From: Brevundimonas sp. UBA4609
Lineage (GTDB): Bacteria > Pseudomonadota > Alphaproteobacteria > Caulobacterales > Caulobacteraceae
Reading direction: 5' to 3'
Assembly: GCA_002386585.1 (NCBI GenBank)
Contig: DGIZ01000146.1
Location: forward strand, 1 to 39,184
Length of the DNA: 39,184 bases
Below, piece after piece: positions 8,169 through 18,898 of this stretch. Positions within the stretch are counted from its first letter, which is position 1. Every line of letters starts with the position of its first letter. The position numbers and the translations under genes were made by a program. The notes under the pieces were generated by a model, which worked only from the letters and a program-made list of their open reading frames with translations, had not been told where the DNA came from and did no database searches.

Positions 8169-9848
8169 ATGACCATGAACCGTCGCGGCCTTCTGGGCCT
8201 GTTCGGCGCGGGAGCGGCGGCGGGCTGCGCCACGGTCCCGACGGGCGAAGGCGTCGCTGTCGCCTTCGCCCACGGGGTGGCCTCGGGCGATCCGGCGACC
8301 GACCGGGTGATCCTGTGGACGCGCGTGACTCCGGCGGACGACCAGGCCGGGCCGGTCTCGGTCGTCTGGCGCGTGCTGGACCGGGAGGGCGATCGCGTCG
8401 TCGCCTCGGGCCGGTTCGAGACGGGGCCTGAGCGCGACTATACGGTCAAGGCCGACGCGGCGGGCCTGCGCCCCAGCCGCGACTATCGCTACGACTTCGC
8501 TGTGGGCGACACACGCTCGCCTGTGGGCCGCACCCGCACCCTGGCGGCGGAGGGCGTCGCGCCGGTCAATCTGGCGGTGGTGTCGTGCCAGTTGCACCCC
8601 GGCGGCCTGTTCAACGCCTATGAGGCGATCGCCGCCCTGCCGACCCTCGACGCCGTGGTCCATCTGGGCGACTACATCTACGAATACGGGGCGGATTCCG
8701 ACGCCTATGGCATGGCGACCGGGCCGATGCTGGGCCGCGTGCCCGAGCCGGCGCACGAGATCGTCTCCCTGGCCGACTATCGGCTGCGCCACGCCCAGTA
8801 CAAGCGCGACGCCGACCTTCAGGCCGCCCACGCCCGCGCGCCCTTTATCTGCGTCTGGGACGACCACGAGACGGCCAACGACGCCTGGCTGCACGGCGCC
8901 GAGAACCACCAGCCCGAGACCGAAGGCGACTTCGCCCAGCGCAAGGCGGCGGCGCTGAAGGCCTATTATGAGTGGATGCCGATCCGCGAGGCCGCGCCGG
9001 GCGCGCTGAAGGAGGCGATCCACCGCAGCTTCCACTTCGGCGATCTGGCCAGCCTGATGATGGTCGAGACCCGCCTGACCGGCCGCACCGAACCGTTGGC
9101 CTATGACAAGGATCTGACCGCCAAGGACGGCCCCGACGGCGAGCCGGTGCTGGACCTGGACGCTTTCCGCGCCCTGCTGAACGATCCCGCTCGCGACCTG
9201 ATGGGGGCGCAGCAACGCGACTGGCTGAAACGCGAACTGACCGCCTCCAAGGCCAAGGGCCGTCCGTGGCAGGTGCTGGGCAATCAGGTCGTCATGGCGC
9301 GGGTGGTCGGTCCCGACGTGTCGCGCACCCTGACCGAGGCCCAGGTTCAGGGCCTGATGGCCCAGATCCCCGAAGCCTATCGCGACCAGTTCGAACAGGC
9401 CCTGTTCCTGTTCAAGATGGGCCTGCCGTTCAACCTCGACGCCTGGGACGGTTATCCGGCCGGGCGCGAGCGCCTCTACGCAGCCTTCGTCGAGGCGGGG
9501 GTGCAGCCCATCGTCCTGGCCGGCGACAGCCACGCCTTCTGGGTCAATGAGCTGAAGGACGCCAGCGGTGCGCGCCGGGCGGTGGAGTTCGGGACCAGCG
9601 CAGTCTCCAGCCCCTCGATCGGCGACGCCATCGGCGGCTTCCCCCTGGGCGCGGCGCTGATGCAGGCCAATGACGAGGTGCGCTTCTGCGATCAGTCGGC
9701 CAAGGGCTTCATCCTGCTGACCCTGACCGAGGACCGGGCCGAGGCGGCCCTGATGCAGGTCTCGACCATCTTCGCCAAGCCGTTCGAGGTCACGACGCTG
9801 AAGCGGGTCGGCGTGAACCGCGCCGATGGGGCGATCACGGGCGTCTGA
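8169..9848 (+). CDS. phoD: PhoD-like alkaline phosphatase/phosphodiesterase, exported
   Basis: The protein has 559 residues. The N-terminus (MNRRGLLGLFGAGAAAGCATV) combines a twin-arginine-like motif and a lipobox-like AAAGC, so Tat export and possible lipid anchoring are likely. An N-terminal PhoD domain follows (FAHGVASGDPATDRVILWTRV), then the metallophosphatase core: VVSCQLHPGG, VVHLGDYIYEYG, VWDDHETANDAW and, near the C-terminus, VLAGDSHAFWVNEL. These carry the Asp, His and Asn metal ligands expected for the Fe/Ca PhoD family. It would hydrolyse phosphomonoesters or diesters outside the cytoplasm. It follows the TonB receptor by 11 nt and converges on the MarR gene with 10 nt between the stops. 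Confidence 0.88.
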   Translation: MTMNRRGLLGLFGAGAAAGCATVPTGEGVAVAFAHGVASGDPATDRVILWTRVTPADDQAGPVSVVWRVLDREGDRVVASGRFETGPERDYTVKADAAGLRPSRDYRYDFAVGDTRSPVGRTRTLAAEGVAPVNLAVVSCQLHPGGLFNAYEAIAALPTLDAVVHLGDYIYEYGADSDAYGMATGPMLGRVPEPAHEIVSLADYRLRHAQYKRDADLQAAHARAPFICVWDDHETANDAWLHGAENHQPETEGDFAQRKAAALKAYYEWMPIREAAPGALKEAIHRSFHFGDLASLMMVETRLTGRTEPLAYDKDLTAKDGPDGEPVLDLDAFRALLNDPARDLMGAQQRDWLKRELTASKAKGRPWQVLGNQVVMARVVGPDVSRTLTEAQVQGLMAQIPEAYRDQFEQALFLFKMGLPFNLDAWDGYPAGRERLYAAFVEAGVQPIVLAGDSHAFWVNELKDASGARRAVEFGTSAVSSPSIGDAIGGFPLGAALMQANDEVRFCDQSAKGFILLTLTEDRAEAALMQVSTIFAKPFEVTTLKRVGVNRADGAITGV

Positions 9849-11445: not shown

Positions 11446-12648
11446 CTAGGCCGCGAGGATTTCGTCCGCGGGGCCGAAGAATTCATAGTGGATGCGGTCT
11501 GCGGGGACGCCGGCTTCTCGAAGATCCGACACCAGGGCGCGCAGGAAGGGACGGGGGCCGCACAGATAGTAGTCGGCCTCCTGGATCGGCGTTTGCTGGC
11601 TCAACCAGGCGCCGGAGATGCGCCCTGCATGATCATGGCCGTCGGCGTCATTGGCGGGCGCTTCATAGAAGACGGTGCTGCGCGCGCGCGGATGGGCCGC
11701 CGTCAGGGCGCGGATGTGCGGCCCCATGGCGTGGACCCCGGCGTCATAGGCGCCGTGGACATAGTGGACCTCCGTATCCGCCTTCTCGGCGACCAGGGTC
11801 TCCAGCATCGACACCATGGGCGTCAGGCCGACCCCGCCGGACAGCAGCACGACCGGGCGCTGCGGCGTCTCGGGCAGGAAGAAGTCGCCCGCCGGAGCCC
11901 CGACCTTCAGCACCATGCCGACGCGGGCGTTGTCGTGCAGCCAACCCGAGGCCAGGCCCTTGTCCTCGCGCTTGACCGAGATGCGATATGTCTCGTCGTT
12001 CGGGGCGCAGGAGATGGAGTAGTTGCGCTTGATCGGCGCATGACCGGGGATGTCGAACCAGAAGGTCAGATACTGGCCCGGTCGGTGACGCAGGATCGGG
12101 CCGCCGTCCTTGGGCTTCAGCACGAAGGAGGTGATGACTGCGCTTTCGGGGCGCACCTCGACTACTTCGAAGGCGCGCCAGCCGTTCCAGCCGCCCTTGG
12201 CCGCCGCCAGGTCCTCGTAGATGGCCGCTTCGCGGGTGATCAGGATGTTGGCCAGGAACCAGTAGGCCTCGCCCCAGGCGGTCATGATCTCTTCTGTCGC
12301 GGCTTCGCCCAGAACATGGGCGATGGCGCCCAGCAGGGCCGCGCCGACGTGAGGGTAGTGATCGGGCAGGATCTGCAGGCCGACGTGCTTCTGGGCGATG
12401 CGCTCGACCGCCGCGGCCAGGGCGCCCAGGTTATCGATGTTGGCGGCGTAGGCCAGGATGGCGCCGGTCAGGGCGCGCGGCTGGGAACCGGCGTCGCCGT
12501 GGTGCGAATGGTTGAACAGGTCGCGGATCTCGGGGTTCTGGAACATCCGCGAGTACATTTCGTGGACGATGTCGAGACCGTGTGCCTCGAGCGCGGGAAC
12601 AGTGGCTTTGACAAGCGCGATCGTGCGCTCGCTGAGGGCTTGGGCCAT
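11446..12648 (-). CDS. hmp: Flavohemoglobin, nitric oxide dioxygenase
   Basis: The protein has 400 residues, the normal length of Hmp. Residues ~1-140 are the globin domain, with Tyr32 (helix B) and proximal His88 in ERIAQKHVGLQI. Residues ~150-260 form the FAD domain, with RPGQYLTFWF and RNYSIS for flavin binding. Residues ~265-400 form the NAD domain, with LLSGGVGLTPMVSMLE and YYLCGPRPFLRAL. It oxidises NO to nitrate using O2 and NAD(P)H in the cytoplasm. The start has a good ribosome site (TAGGAGTTTCCTG, then ATG). It follows the DUF1971 cupin by 56 nt and is probably repressed by NsrR through the palindrome at 13047. Confidence 0.96.
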   Translation of the reverse strand: MAQALSERTIALVKATVPALEAHGLDIVHEMYSRMFQNPEIRDLFNHSHHGDAGSQPRALTGAILAYAANIDNLGALAAAVERIAQKHVGLQILPDHYPHVGAALLGAIAHVLGEAATEEIMTAWGEAYWFLANILITREAAIYEDLAAAKGGWNGWRAFEVVEVRPESAVITSFVLKPKDGGPILRHRPGQYLTFWFDIPGHAPIKRNYSISCAPNDETYRISVKREDKGLASGWLHDNARVGMVLKVGAPAGDFFLPETPQRPVVLLSGGVGLTPMVSMLETLVAEKADTEVHYVHGAYDAGVHAMGPHIRALTAAHPRARSTVFYEAPANDADGHDHAGRISGAWLSQQTPIQEADYYLCGPRPFLRALVSDLREAGVPADRIHYEFFGPADEILAA

Positions 12649-12704
12649 CAGGAAACTCCTAGGCGATACTAAGTGGGGGAAGGAAAGGGGGGGGCTGCCG
12701 GCGT

Positions 12705-13031
12705 CTAACCGGGCGGCTCGTTGTAGAAATCGACGCGCATCTTCATCGGCCTTAACGGTTCGACGAAATGGACCTGTTGCGGTTCGATACGGCCCGGCGT
12801 TCCCGGACGGAGCACAGTGGTCATGTGCCGGTCGCGATAGGTCAGGCGGACCTCGCCCTCCAACACCTGGATCAGGCCCCAGGCTCCCGCCTTGAGGCTG
12901 TGATCGGCCCGCAGGGCGGTGGGCAGGGACAAGGCGTCAAACACCGGCGTCGAGCGATAGGGGCTCGGCGCTGAAGCGGCTCGGGCGGCCGGGGCCGGCG
13001 GTTGTTCCAGACTATGCGAGCGGCCGTTCAT
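12705..13031 (-). CDS. DUF1971 cupin (TehB N-terminal-like)
   Basis: The protein has 108 residues. The pattern LPTALRADHSLKAGAWGLIQVLEGEVRLTYRDR, then LRPGTPGRIEPQQVHFVEPLRPMKMRVDFYNEP, matches DUF1971, a small cupin found alone or fused to tellurite-resistance TehB. His and Glu residues in the two cupin motifs could bind a metal. It is the first gene behind the NsrR palindrome and precedes hmp. From general knowledge, tehB-type genes belong to NsrR regulons in enterobacteria, so the placement is consistent. The exact reaction is unknown. Confidence 0.8.
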   Translation of the reverse strand: MNGRSHSLEQPPAPAARAASAPSPYRSTPVFDALSLPTALRADHSLKAGAWGLIQVLEGEVRLTYRDRHMTTVLRPGTPGRIEPQQVHFVEPLRPMKMRVDFYNEPPG

Positions 13032-13046
13032 CGCCCTTGCTCCATT

Positions 13047-13065
13047 GATGCATTATTAATGCATC
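13047..13065. promoter_or_regulatory. NsrR operator (perfect 19-nt palindrome)
   Basis: The arms GATGCATTA and TAATGCATC are exactly complementary around one T. This matches the published NsrR consensus style GATGYATTT-N-AAATRCATC. The site lies 16 nt before the cupin-hmp unit and about 100 nt before nsrR, so it can control both directions. A second half-site, GATGCATAT, is at 13095-13103, nearer nsrR. Confidence 0.8.
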
Positions 13066-13168
13066 TATAGCCAGCATTTGAAACATGCAATGAGGATGCA
13101 TATAATTTCCTGCGGCGCGATGACGCGCTGATCGAGAGCCCCGCCGTCAGCGGCTCCAGAGAGGTTGA

Positions 13169-13594
13169 ATGCGCCTGACGCGCTATACGGATTACGCCAT
13201 GCGGGTGCTGCTCTACCTGGGCGCACGCGAGGATCGGCTGTGCTCGATCGCCGAGATCGCCCAAGCCTACGACATCTCCCAGAACCACCTGATGAAGGTG
13301 GTCAGCGACCTGGTGAACGCGGGCTATCTGGTCAGCGTGCGTGGTCGATTCGGCGGAGTGAGGCTGGCGCGCCCGCCGGCCGAGATCAACGTCGGGGCCG
13401 TGGTGCGCCACACCGAGGACGGCTTCGATCTGGTCGATTGCGGAAACTGCATCATCGCGCCCGCCTGCGGCCTGACGGGCGCGCTGCATCAGGCCCTGGC
13501 CGCCTTCATGAAGGTGCTGGACGGCTATACGTTGGAAAACCTGCTGGCTCGCCGGGTCGACCTGGCGCGTTTGTTCGAACCGTCGGACGCTTAG
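13169..13594 (+). CDS. nsrR: NO-sensing Rrf2 repressor NsrR
   Basis: The protein has 141 residues, the usual Rrf2 length. The N-terminus MRLTRYTDYAMRVLLYLG is characteristic of NsrR. The winged helix continues with SIAEIAQAYDISQNHLMKVVSDLVNAGYLVSVRGRFGGVRLAR. Three cysteines at 91, 94 and 100 (DCGNCIIAPAC) are placed to bind the [Fe-S] cluster that NO destroys, which lifts repression. The ribosome site AGAGAGG lies four bases before ATG. It is divergent from the cupin-hmp-membrane protein unit with the palindrome between them, a standard regulator-target arrangement. Confidence 0.92.
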   Translation: MRLTRYTDYAMRVLLYLGAREDRLCSIAEIAQAYDISQNHLMKVVSDLVNAGYLVSVRGRFGGVRLARPPAEINVGAVVRHTEDGFDLVDCGNCIIAPACGLTGALHQALAAFMKVLDGYTLENLLARRVDLARLFEPSDA

Positions 13595-13703: not shown

Positions 13704-14249
13704 CTATGCTGAGTGTTCTTCCATCTGTTTGACGAAATCGATCCAATTTTCGTCCTCCATGTGACTTTGGTCACGTACAACCATTTGGTCGTCGATGAAG
13801 ATGTAGGAAGGCACGAGGTTGCTTGGATTCAAGCGCCGCCGCGTATCAGCACCTATTCTAAGAACATGTGATTCGAGCGTGGAACCACCGACAATTGCCG
13901 AAATGTCGTGGGTGTCGTCGGCCGCGATCCAGAAGGTCACCCCGGCACGGGCCATGCCAGGGAGCAAATTCAGAAGTTGCGTGCGCTTAGCGAGACAGGC
14001 TGAACATTTGGATGACAGAAAAACAAGAACGACGTTATGCCCCTGGAGGTCGATGGAGGTGACGGAAGAGCCATCACACTCTCGTCGTCCTTTGAAGTTT
14101 GGTATAATATTTCCGACATTGTTGGCATTAATCAGAATGTAGTTCTCCAATTCCTTGATTCTGCCAGATAATCGAAAAACAAGAAATAAAATCAGTACTG
14201 TAGAAAACAATAAAAATATAATAACAATATCAATAATTCTATCGTTCAT
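13704..14249 (-). CDS. Membrane-anchored TlpA/MauD-like thioredoxin of the peptide cluster
   Basis: The protein has 181 residues. One membrane helix covers residues ~5-26 (IIDIVIIFLLFSTVLILFLVF), followed by a periplasmic thioredoxin-fold domain. The active site is Cys82-Ser-Ala-Cys85 in VFLSSKCSACLAKRTQL. The cis-proline loop is seen in LVPSYIFIDD. Such MauD/TlpA proteins make, isomerise or reduce disulfides in the periplasm. It starts 2 nt after the MauE-like gene and ends the five-gene operon. The first ~130 bases of the gene are strikingly AT-rich compared with the rest of the window, a sign of transfer. In this setting the likely substrate is the two-cysteine precursor peptide, which is inference. 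Confidence 0.85.
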   Translation of the reverse strand: MNDRIIDIVIIFLLFSTVLILFLVFRLSGRIKELENYILINANNVGNIIPNFKGRRECDGSSVTSIDLQGHNVVLVFLSSKCSACLAKRTQLLNLLPGMARAGVTFWIAADDTHDISAIVGGSTLESHVLRIGADTRRRLNPSNLVPSYIFIDDQMVVRDQSHMEDENWIDFVKQMEEHSA

Positions 14250-14251
14250 AT

Positions 14252-14785
14252 TTATTCAATTATCTGCCGACGATGTAAAAGAGACTTTATGTCTTGCATG
14301 TGAATGGAAAGGAGTGCGGCGATCATCGCAACGCCGAAAATCGCGATGAGGTCTATGAAGGCGATGTCATTCATGTCTCCGAACTGGCCGAGATATATTG
14401 CACAGGCAGTTAGCAACCCGATGCTACGTAGAAGGTCGATGCCAGAGACTGTGTGGAGGGAGCTGCCGAAGCAGTTGCATGCGACTGTACTCCGTCGGGT
14501 GAGGGCCAGCGAGATCACGCTCAAGAAGACCAGAAAAAGGGCAGCGGCAGCCATCATGCCGATACGTGCCGCCTCTCCACCGAAGAGTAGAAGCAGGCCA
14601 ACAAGTCCTTCTGCAGTAATGAGGTACAGGGTTGCGCCTCTACTCCATTTACTGCTGACGCCCGTGAGCGCCTCGAGTGCGTTTTGGAATGCTCGGATAT
14701 TTCTTAGCTTGCCTGCCGCTGCCGCCAAGAGAACTAGCATAACGTAGAATCGACAGATTTCGCCGATGTAGGCGACATCGTTCAT
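14252..14785 (-). CDS. MauE/DoxX-like redox membrane protein of the peptide cluster
   Basis: The protein has 177 residues from the ATG at 14785, chosen because it overlaps the protease stop as ATGA; an upstream in-frame ATG at 14836 would add 17 residues overlapping the protease. Four or five membrane helices are visible (for example YVMLVLLAAAAGKL, ATLYLITAEGLVGLLLLFGG and IGMMAAAALFLVFLSVISLAL). The typical MauE motif ACNCFGS, with two cysteines, sits between helices. MauE works with MauD in methylamine dehydrogenase maturation, where several disulfides are formed. No methylamine dehydrogenase genes are present here, so the pair has probably been adapted to the cluster peptide. Confidence 0.82.
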   Translation of the reverse strand: MNDVAYIGEICRFYVMLVLLAAAAGKLRNIRAFQNALEALTGVSSKWSRGATLYLITAEGLVGLLLLFGGEAARIGMMAAAALFLVFLSVISLALTRRSTVACNCFGSSLHTVSGIDLLRSIGLLTACAIYLGQFGDMNDIAFIDLIAIFGVAMIAALLSIHMQDIKSLLHRRQIIE

Positions 14786-15654
14786 TCGATCTGGCCAAGC
14801 CTCCACTGGGGCGCCAAGTCGGCGGGCGCGCGCCAACGGCTCTTGGCGCCTTCTCGTGTCGCGATGACAGCATCAAACCAACCGTCCGTGGTGGTTTTTC
14901 GTGCGCTTGCTCCCACCAACTCTCGGATTGATCTGGATATTTCCCAGGCTAGATCCTCGGTCTGCGGATCGGATCGGATGGGCAGTCCCAAGGCCTCCAG
15001 ATCCCAGCCGGCAAGGGCGAACGTATGTGAATGATGCCCATATAGAAGTCGGTCTATGACGGCCATGTTTGCCGTCGTTGCAACCGACGGAGCTGCGCGG
15101 GCCCGTAATTCCAAGCAGATCTCGTGGGTTTCTAAGCACGATCTGTAGAAGGAGGTGAGCGTCGTGGGGAAGATGTTTTCGCATAGGGTCGTCAAGGCTC
15201 CGACCTGTGCTTCCTCATCGGAGACGCCGAACCAGTTTTTGGCCATTTCGCCGAAAAGCCGCACATCCTGAGCGGAGATCGCTAGGGGAGCCTGTTCGGA
15301 TGCGACTACGCCAGCTTGAAGTAAGGGGTCGATCGGCGAAAACACTGCGACTTGGCCTGCGATGATCTCGTGGGCGCTCAGAGCCACGATGGTGCCTGAC
15401 GATTCACATCTGTCTGGGACGATGAGGGTCAGGTGGTCCGTAAATTCGTGCAGAAGCAAGGCGATCCGCCGCGCGGCATTGACGATTCCGCCCCGGCAAT
15501 AGAATACGACATCCAGCCGCTCGCTCCGCCCCATATCGCGTAAAGCATCGTACAGTGACGGCAGGAGTTCGAGCTCAAGGTTCGAGGCGGCTAAGACTAG
15601 AACCCGGCTCTGTCTTTGGGCTTCGATCTGTTGGATGTAGGGCTGGATTTTCAT
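14782..15654 (-). CDS. SDH-type (ClpP-fold) serine protease of the peptide cluster
   Basis: The protein has 290 residues and no signal peptide, so it is probably cytoplasmic. Residues ~48-115 (LDVVFYCRGGIVNAARRIALL, then TLIVPDRCESSGTIVALSAHEIIAG and FSPIDP) match the serine dehydrogenase proteinase family (SDH/SppA-like, ClpP/crotonase fold). Ser85 in ESSGT is the expected nucleophile. The C-terminal half is less conserved and may contain the lid or substrate site. It starts in an ATGA overlap with the ATP-grasp gene and overlaps the MauE-like gene in the same way. Since the exporter has no peptidase domain, this enzyme is the best candidate to remove the leader peptide. A role in immunity or degradation cannot be excluded. 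Confidence 0.75.
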   Translation of the reverse strand: MKIQPYIQQIEAQRQSRVLVLAASNLELELLPSLYDALRDMGRSERLDVVFYCRGGIVNAARRIALLLHEFTDHLTLIVPDRCESSGTIVALSAHEIIAGQVAVFSPIDPLLQAGVVASEQAPLAISAQDVRLFGEMAKNWFGVSDEEAQVGALTTLCENIFPTTLTSFYRSCLETHEICLELRARAAPSVATTANMAVIDRLLYGHHSHTFALAGWDLEALGLPIRSDPQTEDLAWEISRSIRELVGASARKTTTDGWFDAVIATREGAKSRWRAPADLAPQWRLGQIE

Positions 15655-16664
15655 AGCGCCCTCCTGTTCCGTGCGCCGTCCGACAGAATGCGAGCCGTAT
15701 ACCCTGTCATATCCAGGGCCGGCACGAGTTGTTCGACGAACAGGAACTGTCCGACAGGATTGTTCTCTAGAAAGACGTGTCGACCCTCGGGCGTAACGAT
15801 CAAGTCGATCGCGCCATAAGTCAGGCCGTAGCTATGAACAAAATCCAGGCAGCGACACGAGATATCGGCAGGCAGCGTTTCGGCCTCGTAAAGAATCTCG
15901 GCCGACATATCGCGACAGTCGATCACAGTCCTAGGGTCTGCCTGCGAGTGGATTTTTGCTGCGAACACGCGATCTCCAATAATGGTGACGCGCAGCTCAT
16001 GGGCCTTTGGCACATTGGGTTGAAAGAAACTGGGGAGTTCCACGACCGCGTCGAGCAAGGCGTCATCGTCGTCTGTTATGAGGGTCGTCGAGAGATGGCT
16101 GGCGATCCGGTCTTCGGCGGCGACCTCGTCGGCAGCCAGTATCGGAGACGATAGCGTCTTAAACACCATGTCGCCGTCCACGGCGCGCCGGAACCTGTCG
16201 ACGTCGGTTCGCCGGTTTGTGATGATGGACGACGGAACGTCGAACCCCATTCGGGCTGCCCGAAGGAGTTGCTCGCCTTTCCAGCTTGCGCCTCGCACGG
16301 CGAGCGGGTGACTCATCCAGAAACAATCGAGCGCGTAAAGCATACTGAACAGAATATGCTCCATTTCGCCGTCGGCGTAGGCCTTCTCCTGGGGCGAAAG
16401 CTCGCCGGACCGGTAGCGGAAATCCGCCTTTTGCCTCATCCAGACGGCGCCGATCTCTTCGATCCGCAAGGAGTCCCCTGTGGGGCGATGGGTCAATCCT
16501 CCACCCCACTGTCCATCGGCGAAGGTCAACGTGATGTCGAAAGCGGTTGGAAAATCGTCGAGGTTCAGCCTGAAAGGAGGCGAGGCTGTCGCCTTCAACT
16601 TGGCGGAGACCAGGTCCGCATGGAGGTCAAAGGAGTGGGTGACGATCAGGACGCGTTTCGCCAT
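15651..16664 (-). CDS. ATP-grasp peptide ligase (MvdC/MvdD-like graspetide synthetase)
   Basis: The protein has 337 residues, similar to microviridin-type ligases. The N-terminus KRVLIVTHSFDLHADLVSAKL, with RLNLDDFP and IGAVWMRQKADFRY, matches the pre-ATP-grasp domain of this group, where VWYRR-like motifs are typical. The ATP-grasp core shows FKTLSSP (~168-174), the conserved HELRVTIIGDRVFAAKIHSQ (~222-241), Asp287 in AIDLIV, and FLENNPVGQFLFVEQ (~298-312) with Glu300 and Asn302 as metal ligands. The family joins Asp/Glu side chains to Ser/Thr (ester) or Lys (amide) in a ribosomal peptide using ATP. It lies 78 nt downstream of the precursor gene and overlaps the protease gene by ATGA. Ring pattern and substrate are not deducible. 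Confidence 0.88.
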   Translation of the reverse strand: MAKRVLIVTHSFDLHADLVSAKLKATASPPFRLNLDDFPTAFDITLTFADGQWGGGLTHRPTGDSLRIEEIGAVWMRQKADFRYRSGELSPQEKAYADGEMEHILFSMLYALDCFWMSHPLAVRGASWKGEQLLRAARMGFDVPSSIITNRRTDVDRFRRAVDGDMVFKTLSSPILAADEVAAEDRIASHLSTTLITDDDDALLDAVVELPSFFQPNVPKAHELRVTIIGDRVFAAKIHSQADPRTVIDCRDMSAEILYEAETLPADISCRCLDFVHSYGLTYGAIDLIVTPEGRHVFLENNPVGQFLFVEQLVPALDMTGYTARILSDGARNRRAL

Positions 16665-16697
16665 GCCTGGAGATCTCGAACAGCCTGACTAAGAAGA

Positions 16698-16723
16698 CAG
16701 GGACCCCGCCATGGAGATCCCTG
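16698..16723 (-). terminator. Possible attenuator hairpin between precursor and ligase
   Basis: CAGGGA and TCCCTG form a 6-bp stem with a 14-nt loop. On the minus strand it is followed by TCTTCTTAG. It lies 20 nt after the precursor stop and 34 nt before the ligase start. A partial terminator here would give more precursor mRNA than enzyme mRNA, as is common for ribosomal peptide operons. The stem is short, so this is tentative. Confidence 0.35.
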
Positions 16724-16742
16724 CCTGAGACGATGCTCTAAT

Positions 16743-16937
16743 CTAGCACCAGTAGCCCTTGTCGAGCGGAGCAGGGCGACCGTCAGTGTATTCACTCGCA
16801 CGATACATCCCCTGGCCGGTCGGATCGGTGCAACCGGCGACGGCTACCCCGGCGCGCGCCGTCCATTTGCCGTCCTTCAAACCACTCTGTTTCTTCTCAG
16901 CCAACTTGAACGCGAAGGTTTTCTTTCCGCTTTCCAT
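16743..16937 (-). CDS. Graspetide precursor peptide candidate (64 aa, two Cys)
   Basis: The start at 16937 is supported by AAAGG nine bases upstream; an ATG at 16973 would add 12 residues but has no ribosome site and falls in the palindrome. The leader (~1-30) is basic and amphipathic and contains KKTFAFKLAEKKQ, which could be the ligase recognition helix. The putative core (~31-64) has Cys36 and C-terminal Cys64, acidic residues Asp38, Glu49, Asp52 and Asp59, and possible acceptors Thr37, Thr40, Ser48, Thr51 and Lys60. This is what a side-chain cross-linked graspetide with one disulfide would need. It is the first gene of the operon. I recognise no named precursor family; the role is inferred from position and composition. 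Confidence 0.7.
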   Translation of the reverse strand: MESGKKTFAFKLAEKKQSGLKDGKWTARAGVAVAGCTDPTGQGMYRASEYTDGRPAPLDKGYWC

Positions 16938-16967
16938 AACCAGAGACCTTTCGATTGGTGTGAAACA

Positions 16968-16987
16968 CGACATGGGCGCCCATGTCG
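16968..16987. promoter_or_regulatory. Perfect 20-bp palindrome in the divergent cluster promoter
   Basis: CGACATGGGC is followed directly by its exact reverse complement GCCCATGTCG. It lies 31 nt upstream of the precursor start and about 100 nt upstream of the exporter start. It is a strong candidate operator for a dimeric repressor or activator controlling both transcripts. No regulator gene is found inside the cluster. Confidence 0.6.
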
Positions 16988-17089
16988 CAGAACAACGCTA
17001 CATGGGGCTGGATCGAATGCAAGAGCGATCTATGGTTGATTGGCGTCGGGTAGGACGCGCCGACATCCTCTAAATCACGATGAGCTGTC

Positions 17090-18898
17090 ATGCCTTTAGA
17101 CGCATCCGTTAGCAGCCAAGGATCTATCGCCTTACGGATGCTGTCGCTCTTATGGCCGCGCGACGAGCCGGCTCTCCGCATGAGAGTGATCGCGGCGGTG
17201 ACCTTGATCGTCCTGGGCAAGCTGATCAGCATCAGTGCGCCGCTGATTTACAAGCAGGTAATTGACGCCCTTTCCGGGGGGATGGTGGTGGTCGTGCCCA
17301 TTGTGCTGATCGCCGCCTATGGCGTCGCCAACGTCAGCGCCCAGATAACCGGAGATCTCCGTCAACTGGTGTTCGTTAACGTCGCTCAGCGGGCGATCAG
17401 ACTGACGGCGCTGGAGGTGTTCCAGCACCTGCACCGGCTGTCGATGCGCTTTCATATCCAGCGCCAGACGGGCGGGCTGTCGCGCATCGTCGAACGGGGC
17501 ACCGCCAGCATCGAGTTCCTTCTGGAGCTCGTACTGTTCAGTATATTGCCGACGCTTCTCGAACTGGTGCTGGTCTGCGCTATCCTCTGGCGCTTCTACA
17601 GTTTGGACTTTGCGTTGGTGACGCTGCTCGGCATCGGCGCCTATGTGGCCTTTACGGCTGTTGTCACGCAAAGACAGGTGCATCTGCGGCGAGAGATGAA
17701 CCAGCGGGATGTGGTCGCCAGCATCAAGGCGACCGACAGCATCATCAATTACGAGACCGTCAAGTACTTCAGTGCGGAGCGTCATGAGGCGAGGGGCTAC
17801 GACGCAGCCAGACGCGCCTATGAACGAGCCGCGATCCGCAGTCAGGCCATGCAGTCCGTGTTGACTATCGGTCAGACAGTCATCTTTTCCGCCGGCTCTG
17901 TCGCTGTGATGTTGATGGCCGGGCGCGGCGTGGTCGCTGGCTCGATGACCATCGGCGATTTCGTTCTGGTCAACGCCTACCTGCTTCAACTCTATGCGCC
18001 GCTGAATATGCTCGGGATGGTCTATAGCAGCGTCCGCCAGTCCGTCGCCGACATTGAAGCTATGAGCAAGCTTCTTCAGCAGCCGGTGGAAGTTGAGGAC
18101 TCGCCCCATGCGACCGCCTTGACGGCGCCATACGGCCACGTTCGCTTCGAGCGAGTATCGTTCGACTACGACCCGCGTCGGCGATTGCTGAAAGACGTGT
18201 CGTTCGAGATACCGCCAGGGGGCACCGTCGCGCTCGTAGGTCCTACCGGAGGCGGTAAATCCACGGTCGCGCGACTGCTTTTCCGTTTCTATGATGTCGC
18301 TGACGGATGCATCATGATCGATGGTCAGGATGTGCGGCGAGTCACCCAGGAAAGCCTGCGAAAGGCGATCGGCGTCGTTCCGCAGGACATGGTGCTGTTC
18401 AACGACACGATCTACTACAATATCGCGTACGGTCGTGCCGGGGCTAGCCGGGAAGAAATTGAAAGCGCCGCACGATCAGCTCAAATTCATGATTTTATCC
18501 AGAGCCTGCCCGATGGATATGACAGCCAAGTTGGCGAGCGAGGTCTCAAACTGTCGGGCGGCGAGAAGCAGCGTATCGCGATCGCGCGGGCGATCTTGAA
18601 ACGCCCCTCTATTCTTGTGTTCGATGAGGCGACGAGCGCGTTGGACAGCCGTACAGAGCTCGAGATTCAAGCTAGTCTGCGAGCGGTCTCGGCGGAGCGC
18701 TCCACCCTGATCATCGCCCACCGCCTGTCCACCATAGTGGACGCTGACGACATTCTGGTGATTGATGACGGCCGCGTCGTCGAGCGTGGTCGCCACACGG
18801 AGCTTCTGTGCAAGGGCGGCATATACGCCGCCATGTGGTCGAGGCAAAAGCGAAAGGCAGAGGCGGAGCGGACTGACGCAACTCATCCTGCTGGGTGA
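17090..18898 (+). CDS. Atm1-type ABC exporter of the peptide cluster
   Basis: The protein has 602 residues: an N-terminal six-helix membrane domain (~25-320) and a C-terminal ATPase. Visible motifs are Walker A GPTGGGKST, Q-loop VVPQDMVLFND, signature LSGGEKQRIAIARAIL, Walker B ILVFDEATSALD and H-loop IIAHRLSTI. Membrane-domain motifs such as NYETVKYFSAERHE place it with the Atm1/HMT1 (ABCB7) exporters, normally linked to glutathione-type substrates or Fe-S maturation. There is no N-terminal C39 peptidase domain, so leader removal must be done elsewhere. Its divergent position, sharing a 152-nt promoter region with the precursor, suggests it exports the modified peptide. Confidence 0.88.
   Translation: MPLDASVSSQGSIALRMLSLLWPRDEPALRMRVIAAVTLIVLGKLISISAPLIYKQVIDALSGGMVVVVPIVLIAAYGVANVSAQITGDLRQLVFVNVAQRAIRLTALEVFQHLHRLSMRFHIQRQTGGLSRIVERGTASIEFLLELVLFSILPTLLELVLVCAILWRFYSLDFALVTLLGIGAYVAFTAVVTQRQVHLRREMNQRDVVASIKATDSIINYETVKYFSAERHEARGYDAARRAYERAAIRSQAMQSVLTIGQTVIFSAGSVAVMLMAGRGVVAGSMTIGDFVLVNAYLLQLYAPLNMLGMVYSSVRQSVADIEAMSKLLQQPVEVEDSPHATALTAPYGHVRFERVSFDYDPRRRLLKDVSFEIPPGGTVALVGPTGGGKSTVARLLFRFYDVADGCIMIDGQDVRRVTQESLRKAIGVVPQDMVLFNDTIYYNIAYGRAGASREEIESAARSAQIHDFIQSLPDGYDSQVGERGLKLSGGEKQRIAIARAILKRPSILVFDEATSALDSRTELEIQASLRAVSAERSTLIIAHRLSTIVDADDILVIDDGRVVERGRHTELLCKGGIYAAMWSRQKRKAEAERTDATHPAG

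Follow-up and report, generated by a model that had tools for sequence, protein, structure and literature searches.

A recurrent gene set with an ATP-grasp ligase, an SDH-type protease, and a MauE/TlpA pair marks a candidate graspetide cluster in Brevundimonas sp. UBA4609

Introduction

What would become of a short peptide whose gene lies next to those of an ATP-grasp ligase, an SDH-type serine protease, and two membrane redox proteins? This question is raised by six genes of Brevundimonas sp. UBA4609 on contig DGIZ01000146.1 (C246 in our numbering, from a 3.06-Mb assembly of 270 contigs), of which positions 1 to 39,184 were analyzed; this whole stretch of 39,184 nucleotides (nt) is called the window below. 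An earlier note on this DNA had described the peptide gene, the ligase, the protease, a MauE-like protein, a TlpA/MauD-like thioredoxin protein, and a divergent ABC exporter as a graspetide cluster of a new kind, and its gene set, coordinates, strands, and junctions held for all six genes (Table 1). We consider it probable that the locus stands for a distinct family of graspetide clusters, the product of which would carry an ester and a disulfide, lose its leader to the SDH protease, and be exported. Our confidence is higher for the designation as a graspetide cluster alone, and lower for the exact role of each enzyme.

Results

The ligase groups with graspetide synthetases

Judged by its sequence and predicted fold, the ATP-grasp ligase of the window is a graspetide synthetase. 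All five of its matches among PDB sequences at E ≤ 1e-3 are enzymes of this kind (CdnC, 134 bits; MdnC, 133 bits; MdnB, 98 bits; AMdnB; and PruB), and the MvdD pre-ATP-grasp domain PF21068 was found at 59.5 bits (cut-off, 27). The top NCBIfam models were TIGR04187 (212 bits), MvdD (189 bits), and MvdC (151 bits), none of which reaches its strict cut-off. Moreover, comparison of the structure model (predicted local distance difference test [pLDDT], 86.2) using Foldseek placed chains of CdnC, MdnC, AMdnB, PruB, MdnB, and PsnB at ranks 1 to 32, with template modeling scores normalized to the ligase model of 0.35–0.53 and a root-mean-square deviation of ~16 Å, so that the predicted domain arrangement is untrustworthy. 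Seven residues (K169, K220, E223, R225, D287, E300, and N302) are invariant in 16 aligned relatives, and D287, E300, and N302 align with the AID and FLEINP motifs of MdnC; we take these residues to be metal or ATP binders.

A ligase of the RimK or glutathione-synthase (GshB) type, which the earlier note had named as the outcome that would undo its proposal, was ruled out: the RimK model scored 15.8 bits, no RimK or GshB sequence was matched in the PDB, and RimK ranked 33rd by fold. The window ligase thus shares its ATP-grasp class with the microviridin and chryseoviridin synthetases (MdnC, MdnB, and CdnC), which are its nearest solved structures, and its fold family with the macrocyclases of plesiocin (PsnB), PruB-type, and fuscimiditide-type graspetides. 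Its nearest relative among named genomes, at 70% identity, comes from a Phenylobacterium assembly. Plasmid carriage was rejected: the ligase has matches in 76 plasmid records, every one below 60% identity. Among the 10 plasmid matches listed, seven bear the annotation ATP-grasp peptide maturase or MvdC/MvdD protein, one is labeled a RimK domain protein, and two carry no annotation. The highest identity among these 10 (37.7%) belongs to Deinococcus wulumuqiensis plasmid NZ_CP031163.1 (448130–448993), annotated as an MvdC/MvdD family ATP grasp protein.

A conserved leader precedes cores with four fixed positions

A scan based on the ligase returned 22 loci, with ligases 41–70% identical, that span Janthinobacterium, Massilia, Pseudoduganella, Lysobacter-type bacteria, Phenylobacterium, Altererythrobacter, Hellea, Pseudoalteromonas, and an alphaproteobacterium. 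The short open reading frame (ORF), whose lack of conservation beside the ligase would also have counted against the earlier proposal, has counterparts next to the ligase in all 22, for a total of 48 precursor ORFs at one to four per locus (up to four in L007). A profile of these precursors searched against 5.8 billion proteins gave 1155 candidates, including 592 at E ≤ 1e-3; every name given among the 120 best of these 592 is "hypothetical" or "uncharacterized" protein, and some of the 120 come from Myxococcus, Pyxidicoccus, and Hyalangium. The whole window precursor itself had just one, sub-threshold match to NCBIfam models and, in a form without its last residues, no match to Pfam.

Core statistics were compiled from 175 precursors (55 from loci including the window, plus the 120 best database relatives), which yielded 143 distinct cores of 18–33 residues, none being dropped. 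Leader and core were divided by a pattern that itself contains Cys1 and Ser/Thr2 and that all 175 precursors fitted; a previous pattern had missed P0082, in which the core is preceded by AA (AAC). Every distinct core has Cys1, Ser/Thr2, an Asp five residues before the last (n−5), and a C-terminal Cys (143/143), and nearly all have Gly at n−3 (139/143), an aromatic residue at n−1 (138/143), and an Arg in the loop (141/143). Two Cys residues are present in 140 of the cores and three in the remaining 3. The dipeptide preceding Cys1 is AG in 171, SG in 3, and AA in 1 of the 175 precursors. Leaders share an FAF motif and have a Trp near position −11 in 175/175 cases, that of the window containing TFAFKLAEKK and ending in AVAG. 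Its counterparts beside the ligase in 22 of 22 loci mark the short ORF as a real precursor gene, with a conserved leader and a diversified core. The degree of invariance may be overstated, as the 120 precursors taken from the database lie closest to the profile, which tempers what follows. A lipoprotein reading, suggested by the lipobox-like VAGC before Cys1, was rejected by eye, since the leaders are charged and without a long hydrophobic stretch, and Ser or Thr often stands at position −3.

The gene set recurs beyond the window

The search that the earlier note had recommended, for neighborhoods uniting an ATP-grasp ligase, an SDH protease, MauE, a TlpA/MauD-like protein, and a short ORF, found this arrangement again and again. 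Gene-set counts were taken from searches of all ORFs; longest-ORF calls, which misplaced genes in loci rich in guanine and cytosine, were excluded from them. Among 21 usable ligase-selected loci (the window and L003 to L022; the contigs of L001 and L002 end inside the SDH gene), the SDH protease was found in 20, MauE with TlpA in 20, the ABC exporter in 20, and all four together in 20. Gene order varies: SDH lies on the opposite strand in L014, and MauE and TlpA lie upstream on the opposite strand in L021. The exporters of the Janthinobacterium and Massilia loci are distant from that of the window (mostly E 8e-62 to 1e-68; L010, 4e-267), the exporter still being there. Three extra loci were met through SDH (L033 and L034, which share genomes with L003 and L002, respectively) or through the precursor (L037). 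With these, the counts over 24 loci become 23 for SDH, 22 for MauE with TlpA, 22 for ABC, and 21 for all four; two of the extras were chosen by SDH, so the 21-locus counts are the fairer ones.

Three loci speak against a strictly fixed set. L034 has no MauE/TlpA within 20 kb, L037 no ABC exporter within 19 kb, and L003 has precursors and ligase with the other genes absent from the stretch covered, the full set being present elsewhere in the same genome (L033). L003 (6950–7140) looks like an orphan copy in which the ligase is followed by a short SDH-like remnant, recognized by eye, and then by a convergent aromatic amino acid lyase gene.

A search led by the precursor was made in 40 genomes of a single genus, that of G302, in which L004 lies, with profiles that include rows from that genus. 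The precursor profile matched 12 of the 40 genomes, and each of these 12 also carries ligase, SDH, MauE, and TlpA next to one another, at scores of at least 569, 426, 185, and 217 bits, respectively. In the remaining 28, the best matches reached 162 bits for the ligase, 42 for SDH, 71 for MauE, and 33 for TlpA. The separation depends on score, as any match at E ≤ 0.001 was obtained in 15, 13, 17, and 24 of the 40 genomes for the same four proteins. A single coincidence of two sets of 12 among 40 has p = 1.8e-10 when relatedness is ignored, an overstatement given the kinship of these genomes, and part of these 12 genomes is probably already represented by L004 to L007, L009, L015, and L019. Elsewhere the precursor is rare, occurring in 2 of 299 genomes from the order to which the window belongs and in 1 of 398 from the phylum, with the window's own genome counted in both. 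Since the precursor and the set turn up again in other genera, with 592 precursor relatives at E ≤ 1e-3, the gene set of the window is far beyond chance. By these comparisons of sequences, the set is real and recurrent, with an unusually clear comparative signature.

One ester and one disulfide are predicted

The fixed positions of the core suggest a product with one ester, between Ser/Thr2 and Asp(n−5), and one disulfide, between Cys1 and the C-terminal Cys. Ser/Thr2 is the sole Ser or Thr in 19 of the 143 cores, 17 of which also lack Lys, and Asp(n−5) is the sole acidic residue in 2; no core combines a sole Ser/Thr2 with a sole Asp(n−5). Given these sole-Ser/Thr, Lys-free, and sole-acid cores, a single Ser/Thr2–Asp(n−5) ester is the economical reading. 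For the window, the predicted product has 29 residues and, after the loss of one water and two hydrogens, a mass of 3217.369 Da.

The earlier note had foreseen rings in unspecified number; a cross-linked graspetide is supported, and the data point to one conserved ester. Alternatively, the ligase could make several esters per core, as is usual among graspetides, the Ser/Thr2–Asp(n−5) bond being just one of them or the pair being structural. Many cores do have further Ser, Thr, Asp, or Glu residues, making extra esters possible and counting against the single-ester prediction, and most offer more than one possible pair, including that of the window, with four Ser/Thr, four Asp/Glu, and one Lys. 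We nevertheless find several esters unlikely, as a second ordinary link is impossible in the 17 cores with a single Ser/Thr and no Lys, and no further hydroxyl or acid position is fixed in the 143 cores when counted from either end.

A divergent SDH protease is the candidate leader peptidase

Compared with ordinary SDH proteases, that of the cluster forms a divergent branch. Pfam family PF01972 matched the window protein at 48.1 bits (cut-off, 31.3) over profile positions 83–161 of 286 only, and the three cluster proteins tested scored 48–59 bits versus 353 and 324 bits for two ordinary copies in genome G304; identity of the window protein to two ordinary SDH proteases is 24–26%. The cluster protein nevertheless shares with ordinary members of this family, over seven aligned rows, a GG region, an S-x-G-T motif with the presumed catalytic Ser, a DP motif, and a His. 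Ser85 and His210 are present in all 14 aligned cluster rows, likewise in two ordinary SDH proteases, and would be the catalytic residues; the motif here is S-x-[GA], with Gly or Ala as third residue over the 14 rows. The structure model (pLDDT, 80.7) has a ClpP/SppA fold by structure comparison, and a search of PDB sequences gave one chance-level match (E 0.17). By hydropathy, the window protein lacks a membrane segment, and 7 of the 14 rows show one, at residues 85–111, that is only marginal.

We infer that this protease is the leader peptidase, most likely cutting after Ala-Gly, because SDH is near-constant in the loci, a Pfam scan found no C39 peptidase domain in the three exporters tested (those of the window, L004, and L020), and Ala-Gly before Cys1 is all but fixed. 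Trimming by SDH, as proposed in the earlier note, is therefore plausible, the protein being the sole peptidase of the cluster and its presumed catalytic residues being kept; leader removal itself is the predicted part. Within the same graspetide family, SDH could serve otherwise, either as a copy of the peptide's target that is resistant or acts as a decoy, or by degrading misprocessed peptide, with a host peptidase cutting the leader. Proteases adjoining graspetide genes may serve maturation or resistance (PMC13097080), and graspetides characterized by the time of an earlier study were protease inhibitors (PMC8939145). Furthermore, removal of microviridin leaders falls to C39 transporters or, in class I, to the M1 metalloprotease NosP, whose gene lies 0.8 Mb away from the cluster (PMC13039773). 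Two points thus weigh against assigning leader removal to SDH: a leader peptidase can be encoded away from the cluster, so that proximity counts for less, and SDH could be a means of self-protection. We judge a role other than leader removal to be improbable, given that the gene occurs in 20 of 21 usable loci, mostly overlapping the ligase gene or within 20 nt of it, and given the missing C39 domains and the Ala-Gly found in 171 of 175 precursors.

The MauE/TlpA pair may form the disulfide

MauE of the window was recognized by Pfam at 76.8 bits (cut-off, 27), and its CxCFG motif is present in 12/12 aligned rows, as is the CxxC motif of the TlpA protein in its own 12. The latter falls just under Pfam cut-offs in the window (Redoxin, 25.8 versus 26.6; AhpC-TSA, 23.9 versus 26). 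Two invariant Cys residues in the core and a linked MauE/TlpA pair support the disulfide that the earlier note had added to the product, and suggest that this pair would form it. The residues before the membrane segment of TlpA, summed over 12 rows, include 1 Lys/Arg and 13 Asp/Glu, and the 15 residues after it include 29 Lys/Arg and 15 Asp/Glu. Under the positive-inside rule, these charges suggest that the redox domain lies in the cytoplasm. Such a location is a poor fit with simple periplasmic oxidation and thus a difficulty for disulfide formation by the pair; the redox step may take place on either side of the membrane and in either direction. At L021 (5194–5892), three precursors have a third Cys in the loop, the sole 3 of 143 cores to do so, which also sits uneasily with a single disulfide.

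TlpA-type proteins are often reductants. The pair could therefore keep the two Cys residues reduced, or the Cys could enter another bond, such as a thioester made by the ligase; the cytoplasmic charge pattern and the three-Cys cores of L021 would agree with this, and graspetide synthetases can make non-native thioester links (PMC13097080). Disulfide formation remains our preferred reading and its absence appears doubtful, more so than the two alternatives above, because 140 of 143 cores have exactly two Cys at their extreme ends, no radical SAM family match was found among the window's cluster genes, the only ones searched, and MauE has been proposed to form disulfides in methylamine dehydrogenase, mauE being tied to Cys-rich candidate ribosomally synthesized and post-translationally modified peptides (RiPPs) (PMC7794033). 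These mauE/mauD-bearing candidate RiPP clusters of Streptomyces, found by decRiPPter, share the MauE Pfam family and the proposed disulfide role; their precursors have at least 8 Cys, whereas the cores described here have two Cys and come with a graspetide synthetase (PMC7794033).

That the peptide is instead the precursor of an internal cofactor or redox peptide, as in methylamine dehydrogenase maturation, and not a secreted bioactive compound is suggested by the MauE and MauD-like genes and is very improbable given the variable loops, the up to four paralogous precursors per locus (L007), the exporter in 20 of 21 usable loci, and the patchy occurrence (12/40 genomes of one genus; 2/299 in the window's order).

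A proposed route to a clasped peptide

In the model that we consider probable, the leader would be bound through its FAFKLAEKK region by the ATP-grasp ligase, which would link the side chains of core Ser/Thr2 and Asp(n−5) with loss of one water. MauE and the TlpA/MauD-like protein would form the disulfide by oxidizing Cys1 and the C-terminal Cys, the SDH protease would cut off the leader after the near-invariant Ala-Gly, ahead of Cys1, and the ABC protein would export the finished peptide. In the mature peptide, Cys1, Ser/Thr2, and the last six residues would form a constant clasp of 8 residues that locks the two ends together, and a variable loop of 10–25 residues would be shown to a target. 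A more detailed version, in which the clasp with ester and disulfide and its varying loop are served by a leader peptidase of ClpP fold belonging to the cluster itself and by a MauE/MauD membrane oxidase with redox sites that perhaps face the cytoplasm, the disulfide thus being formed before export, is offered tentatively, as a possibility with less than an even chance.

If the model as a whole proves right, the cluster would encode its own ClpP-fold candidate leader peptidase, unlike C39 transporters and NosP, and an enzyme-made disulfide would give graspetides a second, orthogonal lock; neither was found in the open-access literature searched. A constant clasp accepting loops of 10–25 residues would moreover amount to a natural display scaffold, and the 592 precursor relatives provide many cases in which the predicted losses and cleavage site could be tested.

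Comparison with known graspetides

The earlier note could name no family of graspetides, among those described, that has these genes together, in agreement with the open-access full text searched, a scope outside which lie the supplements of the 43-group graspetide survey and subscription papers. In the same literature, "graspetide" and "thioredoxin" were not mentioned together, and PMC7794033 was the sole match for "ATP-grasp" with "MauE" that looked relevant, the other matches being judged by title. Numbered graspetide groups 1 to 43 were compared through the main text of PMC13097080. Some share protease neighbors, namely over half of group 9 and groups 26, 30, 32, and 40, and by term look-up the terms SDH, MauE, thioredoxin, and disulfide are all absent from this main text. 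Group 9, described with a "serine proteinase," was dropped as a match to the window family, as its motifs fall in an actinobacterial-branch precursor cluster (PMC8939145).

Like microviridin precursors, those described here are short and have a hydrophobic leader motif, which is PFFARFL in microviridins (PMC8939145) and FAFKLAEKK here (PFAF in L020). Unlike microviridin and chryseoviridin cores, those described here end in an invariant Cys and have one conserved Ser/Thr–Asp pair, and where microviridin clusters rely on C39 transporters or NosP for their leaders, an SDH protease and MauE/TlpA adjoin the ligase. Plesiocin, PruB-type, and fuscimiditide-type products are hairpins or stem-loops with nested cross-links (PMC13097080, PMC12291112); in contrast, the second lock predicted here is a disulfide from first to last residue, and the partner genes differ.

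Layout of the locus and other observations

Table 1. Features of the candidate graspetide locus in the window
Feature	Position	Strand	Remarks
Precursor peptide gene	16743..16937	-	64 aa (amino acids) + stop; leader 35 aa, core 29 aa CTDPTGQGMYRASEYTDGRPAPLDKGYWC
ATP-grasp graspetide synthetase, MvdC/MvdD class	15651..16664	-	predicted maker of the Thr2–Asp24 ester
Divergent SDH-type (ClpP-fold) serine protease	14782..15654	-	Ser85 and His210 conserved; predicted leader peptidase
MauE-family membrane redox protein	14252..14785	-	invariant CxCFG; start ATG 14785
TlpA/MauD-like membrane-anchored thioredoxin protein	13704..14249	-	CxxC is CSAC
ABC exporter, transmembrane and ATPase domains	17090..18898	+	divergent from precursor
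Terminator-like hairpin, weak, between precursor and ligase	16696..16710	-	from terminator scan

The ligase and SDH genes, and likewise the SDH and MauE genes, overlap by ATGA, and a 2-nt gap separates MauE from TlpA. From the precursor stop codon (16743–16745) to the ligase start there are 78 nt. The precursor can start at ATG 16937 (64 aa) or at an in-frame upstream ATG at 16973 (76 aa); for MauE, the start given in Table 1 is preferred over TTG 14836, that of the longer version called by the ORF finder. The terminator scan found 7 hits in the region versus 4.7 (standard deviation, 2.3) in shuffled sequences, an excess that is not clear, and the promoter scan of the region found 0 sites versus 2.7 expected.

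The exporter matched ABC_membrane (116 bits) and ABC_tran (112 bits), and its top NCBIfam models are of the glucan-exporter and MsbA types, below their cut-offs. A defense system was rejected: ligase, SDH, MauE, and TlpA had no PADLOC match, and the ABC protein matched the mads_3 and mads_8 models. Adjoining the cluster, at 11446–13594, are a flavohaemoglobin-like gene, a DUF1971 gene, and an Rrf2/NsrR-like regulator gene, which in rough gene calls are not common to related loci.

Two other graspetide-like loci were met. L039 (4833–8199 of contig C218 in G300, a Lysobacter assembly) has a distant ATP-grasp gene followed by small ORFs with repeat cores like TADSGTTADSGTLADSGT and a leader LGRILAVEELxxVSGA, and by its sequence resembles a different, multicore type of graspetide. 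At L040 (7959–9250 of contig C14 in G306, a Hellea assembly), a second, distant ATP-grasp gene is accompanied on the same strand by a small peptide ORF with a GG motif (9083–9250).

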